The notes beneath the pieces were generated by a model. It was not told the DNA's origin, did not search any database, and saw only the letters and a list, made by a program, of their open reading frames with translations. A stretch of 64,000 nt of DNA from Sulfurospirillum sp. SCADC (lineage in GTDB: Bacteria > Campylobacterota > Campylobacteria > Campylobacterales > Sulfurospirillaceae). This document shows positions 3,885 to 49,010 of this stretch, piece after piece (position 1 is the stretch's first letter; every line of letters begins with the position of its first letter). Made by a program: the position numbers and the translations under genes. The stretch spans positions 1 to 64,000 of the forward strand of contig NZ_JQGK01000005.1 in NCBI RefSeq assembly GCF_000743525.1, read 5' to 3'.

Positions 3885-5272
3885 TTAAGACCTTTACAAA
3901 TATCCATTGGGGTGAGCGCAAAATTGTTACATGTAAACGTGCGTGAGACGAGGGCATGTGCTAAAGAGGCACTGATCGCCGCGTCTTTTGGGGTGTAGCC
4001 TTGGGCGAGGAGGGCTCCTATCATACCCGCTAAAACATCGCCACTGCCCCCTTTGGCAAGAGACGGCGTGCCATACGTGTTGATGAAAAGCTCTCCCTTG
4101 TGCGCGATGATGGTGTTCGCACCTTTGAGCACGAGTACGACATGAGGAAAAGCGAGACTAAAGCGTTTGGCGTGTTTAAAGCGGTTTTGCTGAATCATCT
4201 CCACGCTGATTTTCTCTTTACATGTAAGCTCTAAAATCGCGCTAAATTCTTTGGGATGGGGTGTTAAAACGACGGGTTTTTGGGATGCGATGATCTCCGT
4301 GATAAGCGGATGACGGGATAATGACGCATCAATCACCAGTGGCAGTGTGTTGGAGAGCAAAAGTGTTTTCAATGCTGTTTCATCAAAAGGCATTTCGAGT
4401 CCCATCCCTGCGACGATGACATTGGCATTTTTAGGCAGTTTTTCGCTGCTCATGAGATAAATGGGCAATTTTTTTGGCTTTTCTCCTAGGAGTGTTACCA
4501 GACCTGCGCCAAAATGAAATGCGCCCATGCCAGCAAGTCGCGCTGCACCCTCTTTGGAGCCTTGCACAATCGCGACGTGTCCAAACGTGCCCTTATTTGT
4601 GTTTTTCTTGATGCGAATCGGCAGTTTGAGATCGCTTTTGCGAAGCAAAAAGTTGGTGCTAGGTGTTTCGTACTGATTTCGTGCGATGCCCAGATTGGCA
4701 ACTTTGATAGTGCCTATGGCATCTTTAACCGTGTCATTGAGAAGTGCGAGCTTCAAAGCGCCCATCGTCACCGTTTCATTCGCTTGGAAAATGACTGAAT
4801 TCAGCGTTAAATCACTGAGAATTCCACTGGGAATGTCGCAGGCGATTTTATAGCCTTGCTTTGCATTGAGCGTTTCGAGTAGTTTACATGTAAAGCTATC
4901 TAAGGCGCGGTTGAGTCCTGCGCCAAAGAGAGCATCGACGTAAATATCGGCATCGATAAGCTCATTGACCATGGGAACACCCACTTTTTGGGCGCGTTCG
5001 AGTTGTAATTTTGCAAGTTCTGATTTGAGCTCAAAAGGAAGATAGACACTTACATTATACGCGCCATGAAGTAACCGTGCGGCGACAATGCCATCCGCTC
5101 CGTTGTTTCCCATGCCACAGACAAAGAGCGCACTCTTTTTACATGTAAGCTTTTTTTTCACGGCGCGAGCAAGTGCAAATCCTGCATGTTCCATTAAAAT
5201 TTCTGGGGTTAAGCCAAAGGTTGTGTAACAACGCTCATCGAGTGTTTGGGTCTCTTCATAGACGTACTGCAT
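3875..5272 (-). CDS. nnr: Bifunctional NAD(P)H-hydrate repair enzyme (epimerase plus ADP/ATP-dependent dehydratase)
   Basis: This 465-residue fusion repairs damaged NAD(P)H hydrates. Residues 1-205 form the YjeF-type epimerase with 'GMGNNGADGIVAARLL'. Residues 215-465 form the ribokinase-like dehydratase with 'GSKEGAARLAG', 'VLTPHPKEF' and the nucleotide-binding 'LAKGGSGDVLAGMIGALLAQG'. It lies between comM and purN with a 9-base gap and a 10-base overlap. The gene holds four copies of TTACATGTAA (3927, 4218, 4884, 5139), each read as Thr-Cys, the densest cluster in the window. All four fall outside the recognisable catalytic motifs. Confidence 0.92.
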   Translation of the reverse strand: MQYVYEETQTLDERCYTTFGLTPEILMEHAGFALARAVKKKLTCKKSALFVCGMGNNGADGIVAARLLHGAYNVSVYLPFELKSELAKLQLERAQKVGVPMVNELIDADIYVDALFGAGLNRALDSFTCKLLETLNAKQGYKIACDIPSGILSDLTLNSVIFQANETVTMGALKLALLNDTVKDAIGTIKVANLGIARNQYETPSTNFLLRKSDLKLPIRIKKNTNKGTFGHVAIVQGSKEGAARLAGMGAFHFGAGLVTLLGEKPKKLPIYLMSSEKLPKNANVIVAGMGLEMPFDETALKTLLLSNTLPLVIDASLSRHPLITEIIASQKPVVLTPHPKEFSAILELTCKEKISVEMIQQNRFKHAKRFSLAFPHVVLVLKGANTIIAHKGELFINTYGTPSLAKGGSGDVLAGMIGALLAQGYTPKDAAISASLAHALVSRTFTCNNFALTPMDICKGLKWL

Positions 5273-42993: not shown

Positions 42994-44152
42994 AATAGGC
43001 TCAGATACTCACTTGGTTTTGCTATAATCTTCATCGAGCAAATGTATCTCGCAGTCAAGTTATAGCCCCCCATCTCACTCGGTTTTGCTATAATGTGAAG
43101 AGCATGTAACCAACCATCAAGTGTGTTATAGCCCCCCATCTCACTCGGTTTTGCTATAATAGTGTTGGCGATGTTTCCGCCACAGAGGTTGTTATAGCCC
43201 CCCATCTCACTCGGTTTTGCTATAATTACGGCGATAGCCGTGTGGCTCTTCCATGTGTTATAGCCCCCCATCTCACTCGGTTTTGCTATAATTCTACTAT
43301 CAACAATTTGTATATCCTTGTTGTTATAGCCCCCCATCTCACTCGGTTTTGCTATAATATAGGGGCAATGCTTTCTTTTGATGATGATGTTATAGCCCCC
43401 CCCATCTCACTCGGTTTTGCTATAATAAAGGAAAGAGTCGGTACGTCCAGTGGTATGTTATAGCCCCCCATCTCACTCGGTTTTGCTATAATATACAGAA
43501 GATACAGCAATATCCAAAGGAAGTTATAGCCCCCCATCTCACTCGGTTTTGCTATAATAAATCAAACGCTTTATGCGAGTGGTCTTTTGTTATAGCCCCC
43601 CATCTCACTCGGTTTTGCTATAATCTTTTTGTCATAGTTTTTTCCTTAGTTTTTGTTATAGCCCCCCATCTCACTCGGTTTTGCTATAATGGCGATGACA
43701 ACCGTTGACAATATCGTTAAGTTATAGCCCCCCATCTCACTCGGTTTTGCTATAATAGGACAATTTTTTAAAGGTTTACATGTATTGTTATAGCCCCCCA
43801 TCTCACTCGGTTTTGCTATAATTGTTGCAATACTTCTATTGTTAAAATCTACGTTATAGCCCCCCATCTCACTCGGTTTTGCTATAATTTGCTGATAAGC
43901 TTAACGAATTTCATACGGGTTATAGCCCCCCATCTCACTCGGTTTTGCTATAATAAAAATTTTATGGAACGTGCCAAGGTGACAGTTATAGCCCCCCATC
44001 TCACTCGGTTTTGCTATAATAAAGACGTTGACAAGATTACGAGCCGTTGCGTTATAGCCCCCCATCTCACTCGGTTTTGCTATAATTGCAGGTGCTTCGC
44101 TCCATATTCCTTTTAAGTTATAGCCCCCCATCTCACTCGGTTTTGCTATAAT
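42994..44152 (+). CRISPR. Type II-C CRISPR array, 17 spacers
   Basis: Seventeen full repeats of 36 bases start GTTATAGCCCCCC and end GGTTTTGCTATAAT. They lie at 43059, 43125, 43191, 43257, 43323, 43389, 43457, 43523, 43589, 43655, 43721, 43787, 43853, 43919, 43985, 44051 and 44117. All 17 spacers are exactly 30 bases. A half repeat at 43008-43028 precedes spacer 1 with one mismatch, its 5' half lost. The repeat at 43389 is 38 bases, with eight C instead of six. Pairing with the tracrRNA shows that the plus strand is the crRNA strand. Each repeat ends in TGCTATAAT, an extended -10, so each spacer likely has its own promoter, as shown for Neisseria meningitidis and C. jejuni. Between the last repeat and cas2 is a terminator. 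Confidence 0.98.
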
Positions 44153-44208: not shown

Positions 44209-44532
44209 CTAGAATAAAAGTAGTTGGTTTTTACCTATTTTCTCTTCTTTTTTATCCATTCCTATCAATAATTTCATGCGTTCATACTGTGTATTGGTAA
44301 CGCTCATCGCTCTGATGTTGCCTTTTGGCGGTAGATTTGTTTCCAAATGTGACATGTATCGCTCGGCTGTATCTTGTCCTTTGCATATACGGCAATACAC
44401 CGAAAACTGAAGCATGTCATAGCCACTTTTGAGAAGAAATCTGCGAAAGATCGTGTAGTCTTTTCGCTCTTTTTTGGTCGCCGTTGGTAGGTCAAAAAAA
44501 ACAAGCAGTCGCATAAATCTAGCCTCCGTCAT
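44209..44532 (-). CDS. cas2: CRISPR-associated endonuclease Cas2
   Basis: Cas2 bridges two Cas1 dimers in the spacer-integration complex. The 107-residue protein has 'MRLLVFFDLPTATKKERKDYT' with the early Asp, 'MLQFSVYCRICKG' and 'LPPKGNIRAMSVTNTQYERM', typical of subtype II. The ATG at 44532 overlaps the cas1 stop as ATGA; a second ATG six codons later has GGAGG upstream and is a possible start. It is the last gene of cas9-cas1-cas2. Confidence 0.96.
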   Translation of the reverse strand: MTEARFMRLLVFFDLPTATKKERKDYTIFRRFLLKSGYDMLQFSVYCRICKGQDTAERYMSHLETNLPPKGNIRAMSVTNTQYERMKLLIGMDKKEEKIGKNQLLLF

Positions 44533-45422
44533 ACAAAACTCACAGTCTCAATCAGTGTGGCATCTTTTGCTTTAGTCGCTCGAAGCAAAGACTCCGCACA
44601 CAGTTCACAGGCATAAGACAAAGTCGTCTCCATTTTTCCAATACGACAGGGTAGTGAGGGAAGTTCAAGCAGTCTTGTTTTATAGTGCATGGGAAGACTT
44701 AAAGGAAGTTCTTCGCCATCTTCATCGAGTAACTCTCGTGTTAGTGCATCGACAAAAGGTCGAAAGGGTTCGATGATGTCATCGGCAAGATTAAGCGCAT
44801 TGAGTTCATTGCAATGATGCAAACCAAAAGCAGGTAAAAATCCCACACCAACTATTGCCCTTGCGACCATGCCACGCAAGATGGCATAGCCATAATTAAG
44901 AGCAGAGTTTCGTATGTCTTGCTCATCGATATGGCGGGTAAAATTTTGAAAAAGCATACTCCAATACGCCCTTGCCGCTTGTGCTTCGATGTTTGTGGCA
45001 TCTCCTGAGGTAATGCGACCTCGAAGGGAGCATAGGTAAGTTATATCATCCCTTGCACTTGGGTCTAGGACTTCGGATTGGTTGGTGATTTTAGCGTGAA
45101 TGATTTTTTGCCAGCATCGCTTTTTAAAAGGCTCACTCCAAAGCACTTGAAGTCTAGCAACTCCCGCTTGCCTTGAGTGCGCATGAAACGGCAAAATGAC
45201 ACTAGAGGGCAGATGTTTTTCATCGCAAATATAAACCACCGCACTGCTGTTTGCAAGTGCATCAATGAGTGGTGAAGTCAATGTCACATGCCTTGTTTCA
45301 ACCACGACACAAGCAAGGTCGTTTAAAGGAATGGTGTACTCTTCACCATTGTTCAACACAAGTGAGTTGTGCAAAAGGCTCAATTTGGCAGGTTGGGTAA
45401 TAAAAAGCGTGCGCCATCCCAT
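44529..45422 (-). CDS. cas1: CRISPR-associated endonuclease Cas1
   Basis: Cas1 is the integrase that inserts new spacers. The 297-residue protein follows the subtype II form, starting 'GWRTLFITQPAKLSL', with 'AALNYGYA'-like 'SALNYGYAILRGMVARA', 'GLHHCNELNALNLADDIIEPFRP' holding the conserved His and acidic residues. It starts 46 bases after cas9 ends and overlaps cas2. No csn2 or cas4 is present, which defines subtype II-C. Confidence 0.97.
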   Translation of the reverse strand: MGWRTLFITQPAKLSLLHNSLVLNNGEEYTIPLNDLACVVVETRHVTLTSPLIDALANSSAVVYICDEKHLPSSVILPFHAHSRQAGVARLQVLWSEPFKKRCWQKIIHAKITNQSEVLDPSARDDITYLCSLRGRITSGDATNIEAQAARAYWSMLFQNFTRHIDEQDIRNSALNYGYAILRGMVARAIVGVGFLPAFGLHHCNELNALNLADDIIEPFRPFVDALTRELLDEDGEELPLSLPMHYKTRLLELPSLPCRIGKMETTLSYACELCAESLLRATKAKDATLIETVSFV

Positions 45423-45468: not shown

Positions 45469-48400
45469 TTATTTTTGGCGTTTTGGGTGTTTTTTGGCTC
45501 CTTGTGGTATGGTGCCTAAGAGTTTTTCTCCTTTGACCTCGTGGTAATAACCGAGTGGGTCGATGGTGTATTTTCGTACCGCAATAGCAAATTTAATGCC
45601 TTGATCGCACTCGAAATCTTTTTTGGGTACTTTAATATTTTCAGCTTCCCAAAACTCTAAAGTTTCTTGCGAGCAATTACCGATAGCTCTATCTTCTGGT
45701 AAACATTTTTTACACATGTCTTTTTGTTGTTTAAAAAGTGTTATGGGAGAGCATACAAATCCATCTATTATGCCATTATGTATGGAGTTTAATATAAAAT
45801 TTGCACCATTAAGCTGTTTGAAATACCCTAAGAGTTTTTTACTAGGTTTTTTAGGTGTTGCTTTTGTCTCTAATTCAATGAGGTCATTTTTGAATACACT
45901 AAAGCAAAAATATTTTTCATCCATTCCCTCAGGATTTGTACCTAAAGATTTATTGGGGACTTCTGCTTTTGTCATATCTGAAAGATAGATAGGAACTACA
46001 TGATACTTATCATCTTTCTTGTATATATCAACTCTTGGAATTGTGCTTGAGTTGTAAAAATTTTTATCATTTCCGCTAGCGACTTTATCATTTCTAAAAA
46101 GCTCAAATTTATCTTCGTCTATAGGAATCCGCCTTCTTTTGTATTTATTTTTTATTGGCTTGATTCTTGGATAAGGTTTAGCGGTTTGTTCATGTGCAGC
46201 TCCCGTTACGCTAGCACGAGGTGGTCGGCTGATAAGAAGGCGGTTGAGTGTAATGGTATCTCCCGCTTTTGTTTGGATACTCTCTTGGCGTTCAAGCGTT
46301 GTTGCTTGCTCAACAGCTTCTTTAAACTGTTTTATTGGAGTTATTAGAACGGGTTTATCTTTTTCGACTTTTGCTTCTTTTTTGGCAAAATAATCGCTGA
46401 GTTTTTTAACCATACCTTGCGTACTAAACGCTATCATGATGGCATCCATCGCATGATGCGTATGCGTTTCACGATTTTTATTATCTAATCCCCATTGATG
46501 ACGAAGTGTTGAGGTTAGCTTTCCACTACGCACTTGAATACGAAGCTTGTCATCATCGTGTGAGAGTTTCCAGTGATTTTCGCAATAAGTCTTAATGGCT
46601 TTTGACATATAACGAGTATCGTTGAGGTTGCGTGAAATAAACTCTTTTCGACTTTGTGGGTCACTAAAATTTTCTTTTATGAGGTAATTTCTTTTTTTCT
46701 CCCCTAAAGTAGATTCCATTAAGATATAGCTTTTAAAGGTATCCCAATCTTTTTTTTCATCTTGAAACCACTCAAACGGTGTTCGGTTCTTTTTGTTTTG
46801 ATTGCATGCACTGTGAACAAGAACTTTATTGACATAGCTGTCGTCTTGGCTTTGACTAAGAGGGAGTATATGGTCTATTTCAGCATAGCCATCTTCAAAA
46901 ATCATGGGGTAATGTAAATTTTTTTGACAGTAAGGACAAGTGTCTTTTTGTTCACTTCGTAATTTAGATTTTAAGATATTTTTGTAGCTTGGCTTCACAC
47001 CTTCTTCTACGAGTTTTTCAGTAATTTGACGATGCATTTTTTCGTTTTTGTCTCTGTCTTTTTCCCAGCGCTTTCTATCTTCTTTTGTATTGACTTCTCT
47101 CGCAAGTTCAAAATGCACTTTATCGAAACTGCCATATTTTGAGACTAAAGCATTGGCAACTTGGCGAAATTGTGCAAATGCTCGGATGACGGTTGGGTTT
47201 AAGATGGCGATGTTTGTCTCTTTGAGAGGTGGTAAAAGGATGGATTTTTCATGAGAAGGTTTTGGCAATAAGTTATTTTCGAATGCATATTGAACTGCTT
47301 CATCATACCTTGCATAGCCTTCTATCATGATTTTAGAAATAATTTTTATTGCTTTAAGTGAAAGCTGGTTGAATTGACTAAAAGATAATTTAGCCAATTC
47401 GGCAATATGATTGTTATCTATCCAGTCAATATTGACAAGTAAGTTTTTAAGCTTTGTTTCTTTTTGTTCAAATGTTTTATCGTAGGTTAAAATTTTTGCT
47501 ATCTCGTCTGAAATTTCTGTATTTTTTAAAAAAGTTTCATAGTTCAAACCAAGAATTTTTTTAAATTTTGCATTCCCTACAAGATTTATCCATGTTTTTT
47601 CCTCATCGCTTATACTTTTGAACGATATATCTTTTGCAAGATTTAACTCTTTTCGCAGTTGCTTATATTTGAGTGTTTCTTTACTTCTAGCTATTTGAAT
47701 AAGTTGTTCAATACTTTTTAATTCAATTAGCTTTTTTTCTTGTTTATTTTCATCAATAACAATGGTTGAAAAAATTTTACTTAGTATTACAAACTGTTCG
47801 GCTGATGGAGAAGCTTTAGGTGCTCTTTTTTCTCCATCTTGATTTTTGCTTTTGATTTTTGGATAAAAAGTGCAGTAACCAACCATATCTTCGATACTTT
47901 GCATCGGTTTGACATAAAAAGCGATGTCGGTATAGGCTTTTTGAAGTTCAGAAGTGGCAAAAGTAGAGCCAAATTTTTGTTGTGTTTCAAAAATGCGTTG
48001 AATCTCTTCAACCAAAAAGTCTCTAGGAATTGAAATCTCGTAATCACCGCTTTTATTGCGCTTTTTACCTTGCAAGCCTCTTTCTTTCCAAAGCCATTCA
48101 CCCACACTTTGGCATCCTGCTTCAAGAAATTTTTTCTTGAGTTCAGCACCTGCTTTTTTGACTTTTCCGCTCTCTTCGTCGCTTTCATCATCGCCTAAAA
48201 ATTTATATCCCCGATGCTTTGCGATGTGAATCAGCACACGAGCCAGTTCGTCGCCACTTAAAAGATGATAGAGTGCATCATGGCGGAGTTTCCAAACATC
48301 GACACGGTTACTTTGGGAGTGAAACATGCCCATTTCTTCATCTAAGAGCGTTTTATCAATGAGTTTATACGTTATAAGAAGATTTTTGATAGTATTCATT

Positions 48401-48615
48401 CGAACACGCCGTCGTTTAATCACACGGCGAAGCCCTCTTGCGTCTCGCCTAGCTTTATTGGGGCTTTCTTTTTCTTTGGGAGTTTCAGCAGCAGTAAATA
48501 ATCTTACACCGCAATCAATAATTTTGTTGTTTTCATCGTTATCTTTGTCGTACTCAACCACTGCCCAACCAAGTGAGCTAATCCCTAAATCGATTCCTAA
48601 AATTTTCTCAACCAT
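45469..48615 (-). CDS. cas9: CRISPR-associated endonuclease Cas9, type II-C
   Basis: Cas9 uses a crRNA-tracrRNA pair to cut matching DNA. The 1048-residue protein is mid-sized for II-C. It has RuvC-I 'GIDLGISSLGWA' with Asp9, an Arg-rich bridge helix ('ARRDARGLRRVIKRRRVR'), RuvC-II 'FELAREVN' (Glu near 503), an HNH domain with a 'CPYC' zinc pair, 'EIDHILPLS' (His near 582) and 'ACNQNKKN' (Asn near 605), and RuvC-III 'THHAMDAIMIAF' (His near 721, Asp near 724). All catalytic residues are present. ATG at 48615 has AAAAGG six bases upstream; an ATG five codons earlier (48630) lacks this. The gene is AT-rich and has no TTACATGTAA. Confidence 0.97.
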   Translation of the reverse strand: MVEKILGIDLGISSLGWAVVEYDKDNDENNKIIDCGVRLFTAAETPKEKESPNKARRDARGLRRVIKRRRVRMNTIKNLLITYKLIDKTLLDEEMGMFHSQSNRVDVWKLRHDALYHLLSGDELARVLIHIAKHRGYKFLGDDESDEESGKVKKAGAELKKKFLEAGCQSVGEWLWKERGLQGKKRNKSGDYEISIPRDFLVEEIQRIFETQQKFGSTFATSELQKAYTDIAFYVKPMQSIEDMVGYCTFYPKIKSKNQDGEKRAPKASPSAEQFVILSKIFSTIVIDENKQEKKLIELKSIEQLIQIARSKETLKYKQLRKELNLAKDISFKSISDEEKTWINLVGNAKFKKILGLNYETFLKNTEISDEIAKILTYDKTFEQKETKLKNLLVNIDWIDNNHIAELAKLSFSQFNQLSLKAIKIISKIMIEGYARYDEAVQYAFENNLLPKPSHEKSILLPPLKETNIAILNPTVIRAFAQFRQVANALVSKYGSFDKVHFELAREVNTKEDRKRWEKDRDKNEKMHRQITEKLVEEGVKPSYKNILKSKLRSEQKDTCPYCQKNLHYPMIFEDGYAEIDHILPLSQSQDDSYVNKVLVHSACNQNKKNRTPFEWFQDEKKDWDTFKSYILMESTLGEKKRNYLIKENFSDPQSRKEFISRNLNDTRYMSKAIKTYCENHWKLSHDDDKLRIQVRSGKLTSTLRHQWGLDNKNRETHTHHAMDAIMIAFSTQGMVKKLSDYFAKKEAKVEKDKPVLITPIKQFKEAVEQATTLERQESIQTKAGDTITLNRLLISRPPRASVTGAAHEQTAKPYPRIKPIKNKYKRRRIPIDEDKFELFRNDKVASGNDKNFYNSSTIPRVDIYKKDDKYHVVPIYLSDMTKAEVPNKSLGTNPEGMDEKYFCFSVFKNDLIELETKATPKKPSKKLLGYFKQLNGANFILNSIHNGIIDGFVCSPITLFKQQKDMCKKCLPEDRAIGNCSQETLEFWEAENIKVPKKDFECDQGIKFAIAVRKYTIDPLGYYHEVKGEKLLGTIPQGAKKHPKRQK

Positions 48616-48661
48616 GACGTACCTTTTCATCGTGAATTAAGCAATGTTCATATAGTATCAC

Positions 48662-48775
48662 ATTTATAGCACAACCGAGTGAGATCTAAGGGCTATAATA
48701 AGGGTTTCTAAGCTTCTCCCGTGAAGCGCTACTCTACGGAGTATCTTCTAAAAAGCTTTTCCTTTTTTCTTCAAC
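48662..48775 (+). ncRNA. tracrRNA
   Basis: The anti-repeat at 48664-48699 pairs with the repeat: 21 of its first 22 bases match the repeat's reverse complement, then CTAAGGG opposes the C run as an internal bulge, then CTATAA pairs with the repeat's first bases. The tail follows as in C. jejuni, with hairpins GCTTC/GAAGC (48712-48727) and ACTC/GAGT (48731-48742), an AAAAGCTTTT palindrome and a T tract ending near 48770. A TATAGT -10 at 48651-48656 fits a start near 48662. The gene is divergent from cas9. Confidence 0.9.
48663..48671 (-). promoter_or_regulatory. Repeat-derived extended -10 promoter for cas9
   Basis: The minus strand of the tracrRNA anti-repeat reads TGCTATAAA, one base from the TGCTATAAT promoter of every CRISPR repeat. 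Start would be near 48656, giving a 41-base leader to the cas9 ATG at 48615. The promoter thus seems inherited from an ancestral repeat. Confidence 0.55.
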
Positions 48776-49010
48776 TTCCATACATTATTTTTTACATGTA
48801 AAGCCTATTTCTGATTTGCTGCTTCGATTTTTTCGGAGATTTGTTGCCACTCTTAAAAAGACTTTTGCTAATTCTGTACATAAATGTAGCTAGATCATAT
48901 TGCACAGTTTTGCTAGGGGAAGGAAGCTTGGCGTATGGCGAAATTATCTTACATGTAAAGATTCAGAGTGAGCGTTCTCTTTTGCTTTTAGAGGCAAAAG
49001 AGAAGGAGTT
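48776..49010. other. Intergenic region between tracrRNA and cheY
   Basis: No gene is seen. It holds two TTACATGTAA copies (48792 and 48949) and a hairpin downstream of cheY with arms TTCTCTTTTGC (48975-48985) and GCAAAAGAGAA (48994-49004), which may protect or end the cheY transcript. Confidence 0.6.

Follow-up and report, generated by a model that had tools for sequence, protein, structure and literature searches.

The minimal type II-C CRISPR-Cas system of Campylobacter jejuni contains only cas9, cas1 and cas2, its tracrRNA pairs with the repeat, and its repeats end in an extended -10 box that starts the crRNA (PMC3656092). Each crRNA is transcribed from a functional promoter at this site in the repeat, and the sequence TGxTATAAT, without a -35 box, precedes 89% of the C. 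jejuni start sites (PMC3656092). In the type II-C system of Riemerella anatipestifer the anti-repeat is also located upstream of cas9; it has a length of 16 nt, promoters were not found in the repeats and a promoter overlap is not described (PMC5006608). In S. pyogenes, the tracrRNA locus acts near the cas promoter and could modulate the cas genes through tracr-L autoregulation of Pcas (PMC11417352). In E. coli and Salmonella, symmetric bidirectional promoters possess opposed -10 boxes that share bases (PMC12825309, PMC10268837). The commonest separation of their starts is 18 bp, 10 and 23 bp being also common (PMC12825309), and the 18-bp value is explained by the reciprocal coincidence of -7T and -11A (PMC10268837). 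A divergent tracrRNA upstream of cas9, the II-C repeat promoters and the symmetric bidirectional promoters are each already known. In the open-licence literature searched, we found no tracrRNA/cas9 bidirectional promoter, which is weak evidence of novelty, and no single element combining all three, with lineages where the repeat promoter is intact, decayed or replaced.

The window analyzed here is a stretch of 64,000 nucleotides from Sulfurospirillum sp. SCADC (contig NZ_JQGK01000005.1). It contains a minimal type II-C CRISPR-Cas locus, with cas9, cas1 and cas2 and without csn2 or cas4 (NCBIfam and PADLOC); these three genes are the only open reading frames between the array and the tracrRNA. 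All are on the minus strand: cas9 (45469-48615, 1048 aa; TIGR01865, 627.8 bits for a cut-off of 100), the type II cas1 (44529-45422; TIGR03639, 271.9 bits for a cut-off of 120) and cas2 (44209-44532; TIGR01573, 76.8 bits for a cut-off of 24.5; PADLOC Cas2_II). The cas9 start is correctly placed at the ATG 48615: the ribosome-binding site AAAAGG (48622-48627, minus strand) lies 7 nt upstream, and the matching start is the sole one in the congeneric locus L229. The CRISPR array (43005-44152, plus strand) is composed of 18 repeats of 36 nt (GTTATAGCCCCCCATCTCACTCGGTTTTGCTATAAT), and the 3' end of every repeat is TGCTATAAT, a predicted extended -10 box. The first repeat as transcribed (43005-43028) is degenerate with TGCTATAAT retained, so the array seems to be oldest at its cas-distal end. 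With two additional C in the C tract, the repeat at 43389-43426 reaches 38 nt rather than 36, which gives a single spacing of 68 nt. Outside the array, the motif TGNTATAAW is present only 6 times in the 64 kb. A -35/-10 scan found no sigma-70 site, a result that is uninformative because Campylobacterota promoters have no -35 boxes. We also observed a palindrome, TTACATGTAA, with 33 copies between positions 3927 and 62663 of the window (e.g. 42979, 48792 and 48949) versus 0.06 expected; several copies were seen between genes. Genome-wide, TTTACATGTAAAG is matched 351 times in the forward and 375 times in the reverse direction, against none for the reversed-letter control.

The tracrRNA anti-repeat (48662-48699, plus strand), supported by local alignment and duplex prediction, copies the CRISPR repeat in reverse over its full length. 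Its local alignment with the reverse-complemented repeat covers positions 2-35 and displays 30 identities out of 34, the other four bases being mismatches, plus a single 1-nt gap. It scores 23, whereas none of 100 shuffled repeats searched over these 64 kb exceeds 16. The mismatches are mainly in the C tract, which is the site of a bulge in the repeat:anti-repeat duplex, predicted at -47 kcal/mol and spanning nearly the full 36 nt. These values bear out the initial annotation, which had described the anti-repeat as a near-complete reverse copy of a repeat, and support its proposal that a repeat has been converted. The predicted tracrRNA gene (48662-48768, plus strand) extends from the anti-repeat to a stem and a T run, an order of parts also seen in the congeneric loci L228 and L229. 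The 3' end was assigned by eye from the stem AAAAGCTTTT (48751-48760), which the terminator scan did not report, and from the T run (48763-48768). An Rfam search of the window recovered only tRNAs and the predicted fold of the tracrRNA is no better than that of shuffled sequences, so the identity of the tracrRNA rests on the anti-repeat.

Related loci were gathered by searching whole genomes from the class and from five families, and larger stretches were then extracted; a contig scan of genomes with one protein had given only two congeners and one distant match. Two main layouts were observed. In the Campylobacter-like loci, cas2 and the array flank the anti-repeat, whose match to the repeat stops near position 25, short of the -10 box of the repeat. 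Judged from these loci, the C. jejuni system (PMC3656092) differs from that of the window in both respects, since its tracrRNA is not divergent from cas9 and its anti-repeat match ends at about 25 nt. In the second layout the tracrRNA is divergent from cas9, and a few dozen bases separate the anti-repeat from the beginning of cas9. Sequence comparison identifies it in 43 type II-C loci of the Campylobacteria, divided among six family groups (f1, f2, f4, f6, f7 and f8); the 43 loci are not independent events, as the tree suggests about ten lineages. The initial annotation had advised looking for the layout of the window in related II-C loci, and these 43 loci share it. In the Cas9 tree, the loci with the Campylobacter layout group into a single main clade, those with the divergent layout into two large clades and one long branch. 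A third layout was found in the Campylobacter-like loci L076 and L084 (genomes G254 and G001), where the array is between the tracrRNA and cas9, with the array and anti-repeat about 490-650 nt upstream of cas9. Another genome, G203, has two cas9 genes on contig C1 (692465-695350 and 716318-719203), which have identical match scores, face opposite ways and are separated by about 24 kb.

On the minus strand, the anti-repeat carries a relic of the repeat promoter directed at cas9, TGCTATAAA (48663-48671). The initial annotation was right that the repeat promoter is kept there with one change (TGCTATAAA at 48671-48663 against TGCTATAAT); it was silent on the nature of this change, by which the -10 box TATAAT loses its final T (-7T). 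This base is present in 40 of the 40 type II repeats collected (one further array of the repeat table, not of type II, is outside the 40). Immediately outside the anti-repeat, the plus strand contains a predicted tracrRNA -10 box, TATAGT (48651-48656), from which the RNA would begin at the first base of the anti-repeat (A48662 or T48663). With the first base of the relic hexamer as origin and offsets increasing toward cas9, a tracrRNA-directed hexamer having -11A and -7T is found at offset 7-12 in all 43 loci, versus 11.8 expected from shuffled sequences. On this comparative evidence, the position of the tracrRNA -10 box is conserved and the short overlapping promoter zone is real.

Concerning cas9, a candidate -10 box with its TG extension, TGA TACTAT (TGATACTAT; 48652-48660, minus strand), overlaps the tracrRNA -10 box by 5 bp and predicts a start near A48645, with a leader of 30 nt. 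It is the top cas9-directed site by a score that weights -7T and -11A from prior knowledge, and the site placed identically is also the best in L228 and L229. Its hexamer matches TATAAT at four of six bases. TACTAT (48652-48657, minus strand) and TATAGT (48651-48656, plus strand) are arranged as in a symmetric promoter, with reciprocal -7T and -11A and predicted starts separated by 18 bp. At this separation, the -7T and -11A on the cas9 side follow automatically from the tracrRNA -10 box, and only the T at -12 and the TG are independent. The expected initiating A, facing a T at -18 of the other start, fits A48645 for cas9; for the tracrRNA the corresponding base is T48663, or A48662 at 17 bp.

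Assuming that both starts lie 7 nt after their hexamers, the predicted separations between the cas9 and tracrRNA starts in the 43 loci are 9-10 bp (6 loci), 18 bp (10 loci), 23 bp (21 loci), 28 bp (4 loci) or other values (2 loci). The four classes cover 41 of the 43 loci, versus approximately 32% of shuffled regions, and the first three agree with the optima reported for symmetric bidirectional promoters. The loci L116-L118 and L056 share the predicted 28-bp separation, which is outside the published range of 7-25 bp for bidirectional promoters. The earlier idea that the two starts nearly overlap thus stands in a modified form: they are predicted 9-28 bp apart in the related loci and, in the window, 18 bp apart by the box at +11 shared between both directions (TGATACTAT opposite TATAGT) rather than 7 bp apart by way of the relic.

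The explanation that we favor, with roughly even confidence, is that a single bidirectional promoter, located where the anti-repeat begins and either descended from the repeat promoter or replacing it, serves both the tracrRNA and cas9, and that cas9 is read from the shared box. The tracrRNA (plus strand) and cas9-cas1-cas2 (minus strand) would be transcribed divergently from one overlapping zone (48645-48671), where RNA polymerase could bind either way, one orientation giving the tracrRNA and the other the cas9 mRNA. The latter would most likely come from a polymerase placed in the opposite orientation on nearly the same bases, with the extended -10 box TGA-TACTAT (48660-48652). The start sites, inferred like the promoter activity itself, would lie about 18 bp apart, as is usual in symmetric bidirectional promoters. 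Unlike the E. coli and Salmonella examples (PMC12825309, PMC10268837), the zone of Sulfurospirillum, with its predicted starts, would yield a guide-RNA cofactor and the mRNA of its effector, and it abuts a copy of a CRISPR repeat.

The initial annotation had proposed instead that TGCTATAAA, within the anti-repeat, still drives cas9, which would place the cas9 start near 48656, 7 bp from the tracrRNA start. The relic has five of six matches to the -10 box plus the TG. The leader of about 41 nt before the ATG 48615 given by the annotation is reproduced by a start approximately 7 nt past the relic, and C. jejuni leaders typically measure 20-50 nt. Two de novo -10 matrices, one derived from 371 upstream regions and the other from 355, also favor the relic, with scores of 8.2 and 7.1 for TGCTATAAA versus 2.3 and 0.7 for TGATACTAT; both are noisy, probably owing to wrongly assigned starts. 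Among the relatives, an intact -10 box (-11A and -7T) in the anti-repeat in the cas9 orientation is absent from the window and present in six other loci (L058, L227, L158, L192, L193 and L195), the only ones where the relic is both intact and the best cas9-directed extended -10; L058 and L227 belong to a sister genus. Against this, the -7T that is invariant in the 40 repeats has gone from all three Sulfurospirillum loci (TATAAA in the window and L228, and a further decayed TATGAA in L229). The relics are also broken in L116-L118 and L056, which belong to the same Cas9 clade as the window. The spacing from the relic to the tracrRNA -10 box is 12 in the window versus 9-10 in the loci with an intact relic, which fall in the 10-bp separation class. 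Furthermore, the tracrRNA -10 box and its symmetric partner lie 11-12 nt nearer cas9 and are arranged as in known bidirectional promoters. The repeat-derived -10 box has thus probably lost its main role in the window, and we find it less likely than not that cas9 is read from the relic there. The claim that one repeat provides both the pairing segment of the tracrRNA and the cas9 promoter holds for the converted repeat and is consistent with the six loci with an intact relic, but in the window the relic is deprived of its -7T.

In the remaining loci, the best cas9-directed -10 box is mostly offset from the relic, by +7 (f4), +11 (Sulfurospirillum), +14 (f8g12) and +18/19 (L116-L118). In f8g12, a clade of 20 loci, the last four columns of the relic (2-5) contain only 0.14-0.84 bits, i.e. 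they drift. In this clade TGNTATAAT is fixed 14 nt nearer cas9 than the relic, within the motif ATG-N-TATAAT at +10 to +19, which is invariant save N. This ten-base box reads both ways, as TGNTATAAT toward cas9 and as TATCAT (or TAACAT/TACCAT) toward the tracrRNA. The box shared by the f4 loci is nearly palindromic (TATGATA or TATAATA). L067, in genome G203, is the only locus where the promoter zone has no good cas9-directed -10 box. The decay of the relic is apparent from this comparison. In most relatives, to judge from these motifs, another -10 box appears to have taken over from a broken relic, cas9 starting from a neighboring site. The intact relic and the substitute -10 box are negatively associated (Fisher p 0.002 over loci, a value that ignores kinship), which also fits a promoter role of the relic. 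A tree-based test gave four independent pairs of intact and broken relics, of which none changed in the same way and two or three in the opposite way, too few for significance.

It can also be imagined that TGCTATAAA is a by-product of the constraint on pairing between the tracrRNA and the repeat, and was never a promoter in this orientation, the cas9 promoters having arisen independently beside it. Base-pairing alone would keep most of the motif, and in the Campylobacter-type loci, with the anti-repeat near the array, the match ends at about 25 nt. However, the tracrRNA start is predicted at offset 2-5, so the last bases of the relic would be outside the RNA or at its edge, where they drift in f8g12; TATAAT is nonetheless intact in L058 and L227 with the bases beyond differing, and we judge this explanation improbable. 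A cas9 read from farther upstream, for instance from the co-directional cheY-like gene (49370-49011), agrees with the orientation of that gene in the window and with a terminator scan that found no minus-strand terminator there, but is the least probable, as the mRNA would carry an antisense copy of the tracrRNA exposed to RNase III, and as the gene upstream of the tracrRNA points either way in 36 related loci (19 versus 17, the 17 pointing away from cas9 with the local -10 arrangement still conserved), so that cas9 generally needs a local promoter.

Under the favored bidirectional promoter, the anti-repeat would derive from a CRISPR repeat, and cas9 was probably transcribed in an ancestor from the promoter of that repeat (TGCTATAAT, now TGCTATAAA). 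This promoter may still drive cas9 in a few relatives, and is a damaged relic in Sulfurospirillum. Competition between the cas9 and tracrRNA directions is possible, because in C. jejuni NCTC11168 the tracrRNA was more abundant than any other small RNA, but would not be automatic. In five E. coli bidirectional promoters competition was absent at basal activity and required strong activity in one direction (PMC12825309). Such a promoter overlap, as proposed for Sulfurospirillum, differs from the tracr-L autoregulation of S. pyogenes, where Cas9 acts as an RNA-guided repressor (PMC11417352). A comparison of the array spacers with the promoter zone (48561-48800) found no guide for self-regulation, the longest match being 10 nt.

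We put forward more tentatively a wider scenario. A repeat turned into a tracrRNA gene would have given cas9 its promoter, the lineages would repeatedly have exchanged the repeat -10 box for opposed -10 boxes at 18 or 23 bp, and a single polymerase site would choose between the cofactor and the nuclease mRNA, setting their ratio. If this is true, the effector and its guide cofactor would be coupled by promoter occupancy, without a regulator protein, throughout a large set of minimal Cas9 systems, and the stoichiometry of cas9 and tracrRNA could be tested by single base changes. It would also represent a concrete route by which a CRISPR repeat yielded both a cas promoter and a tracrRNA gene, different stages of which would be seen in several lineages.
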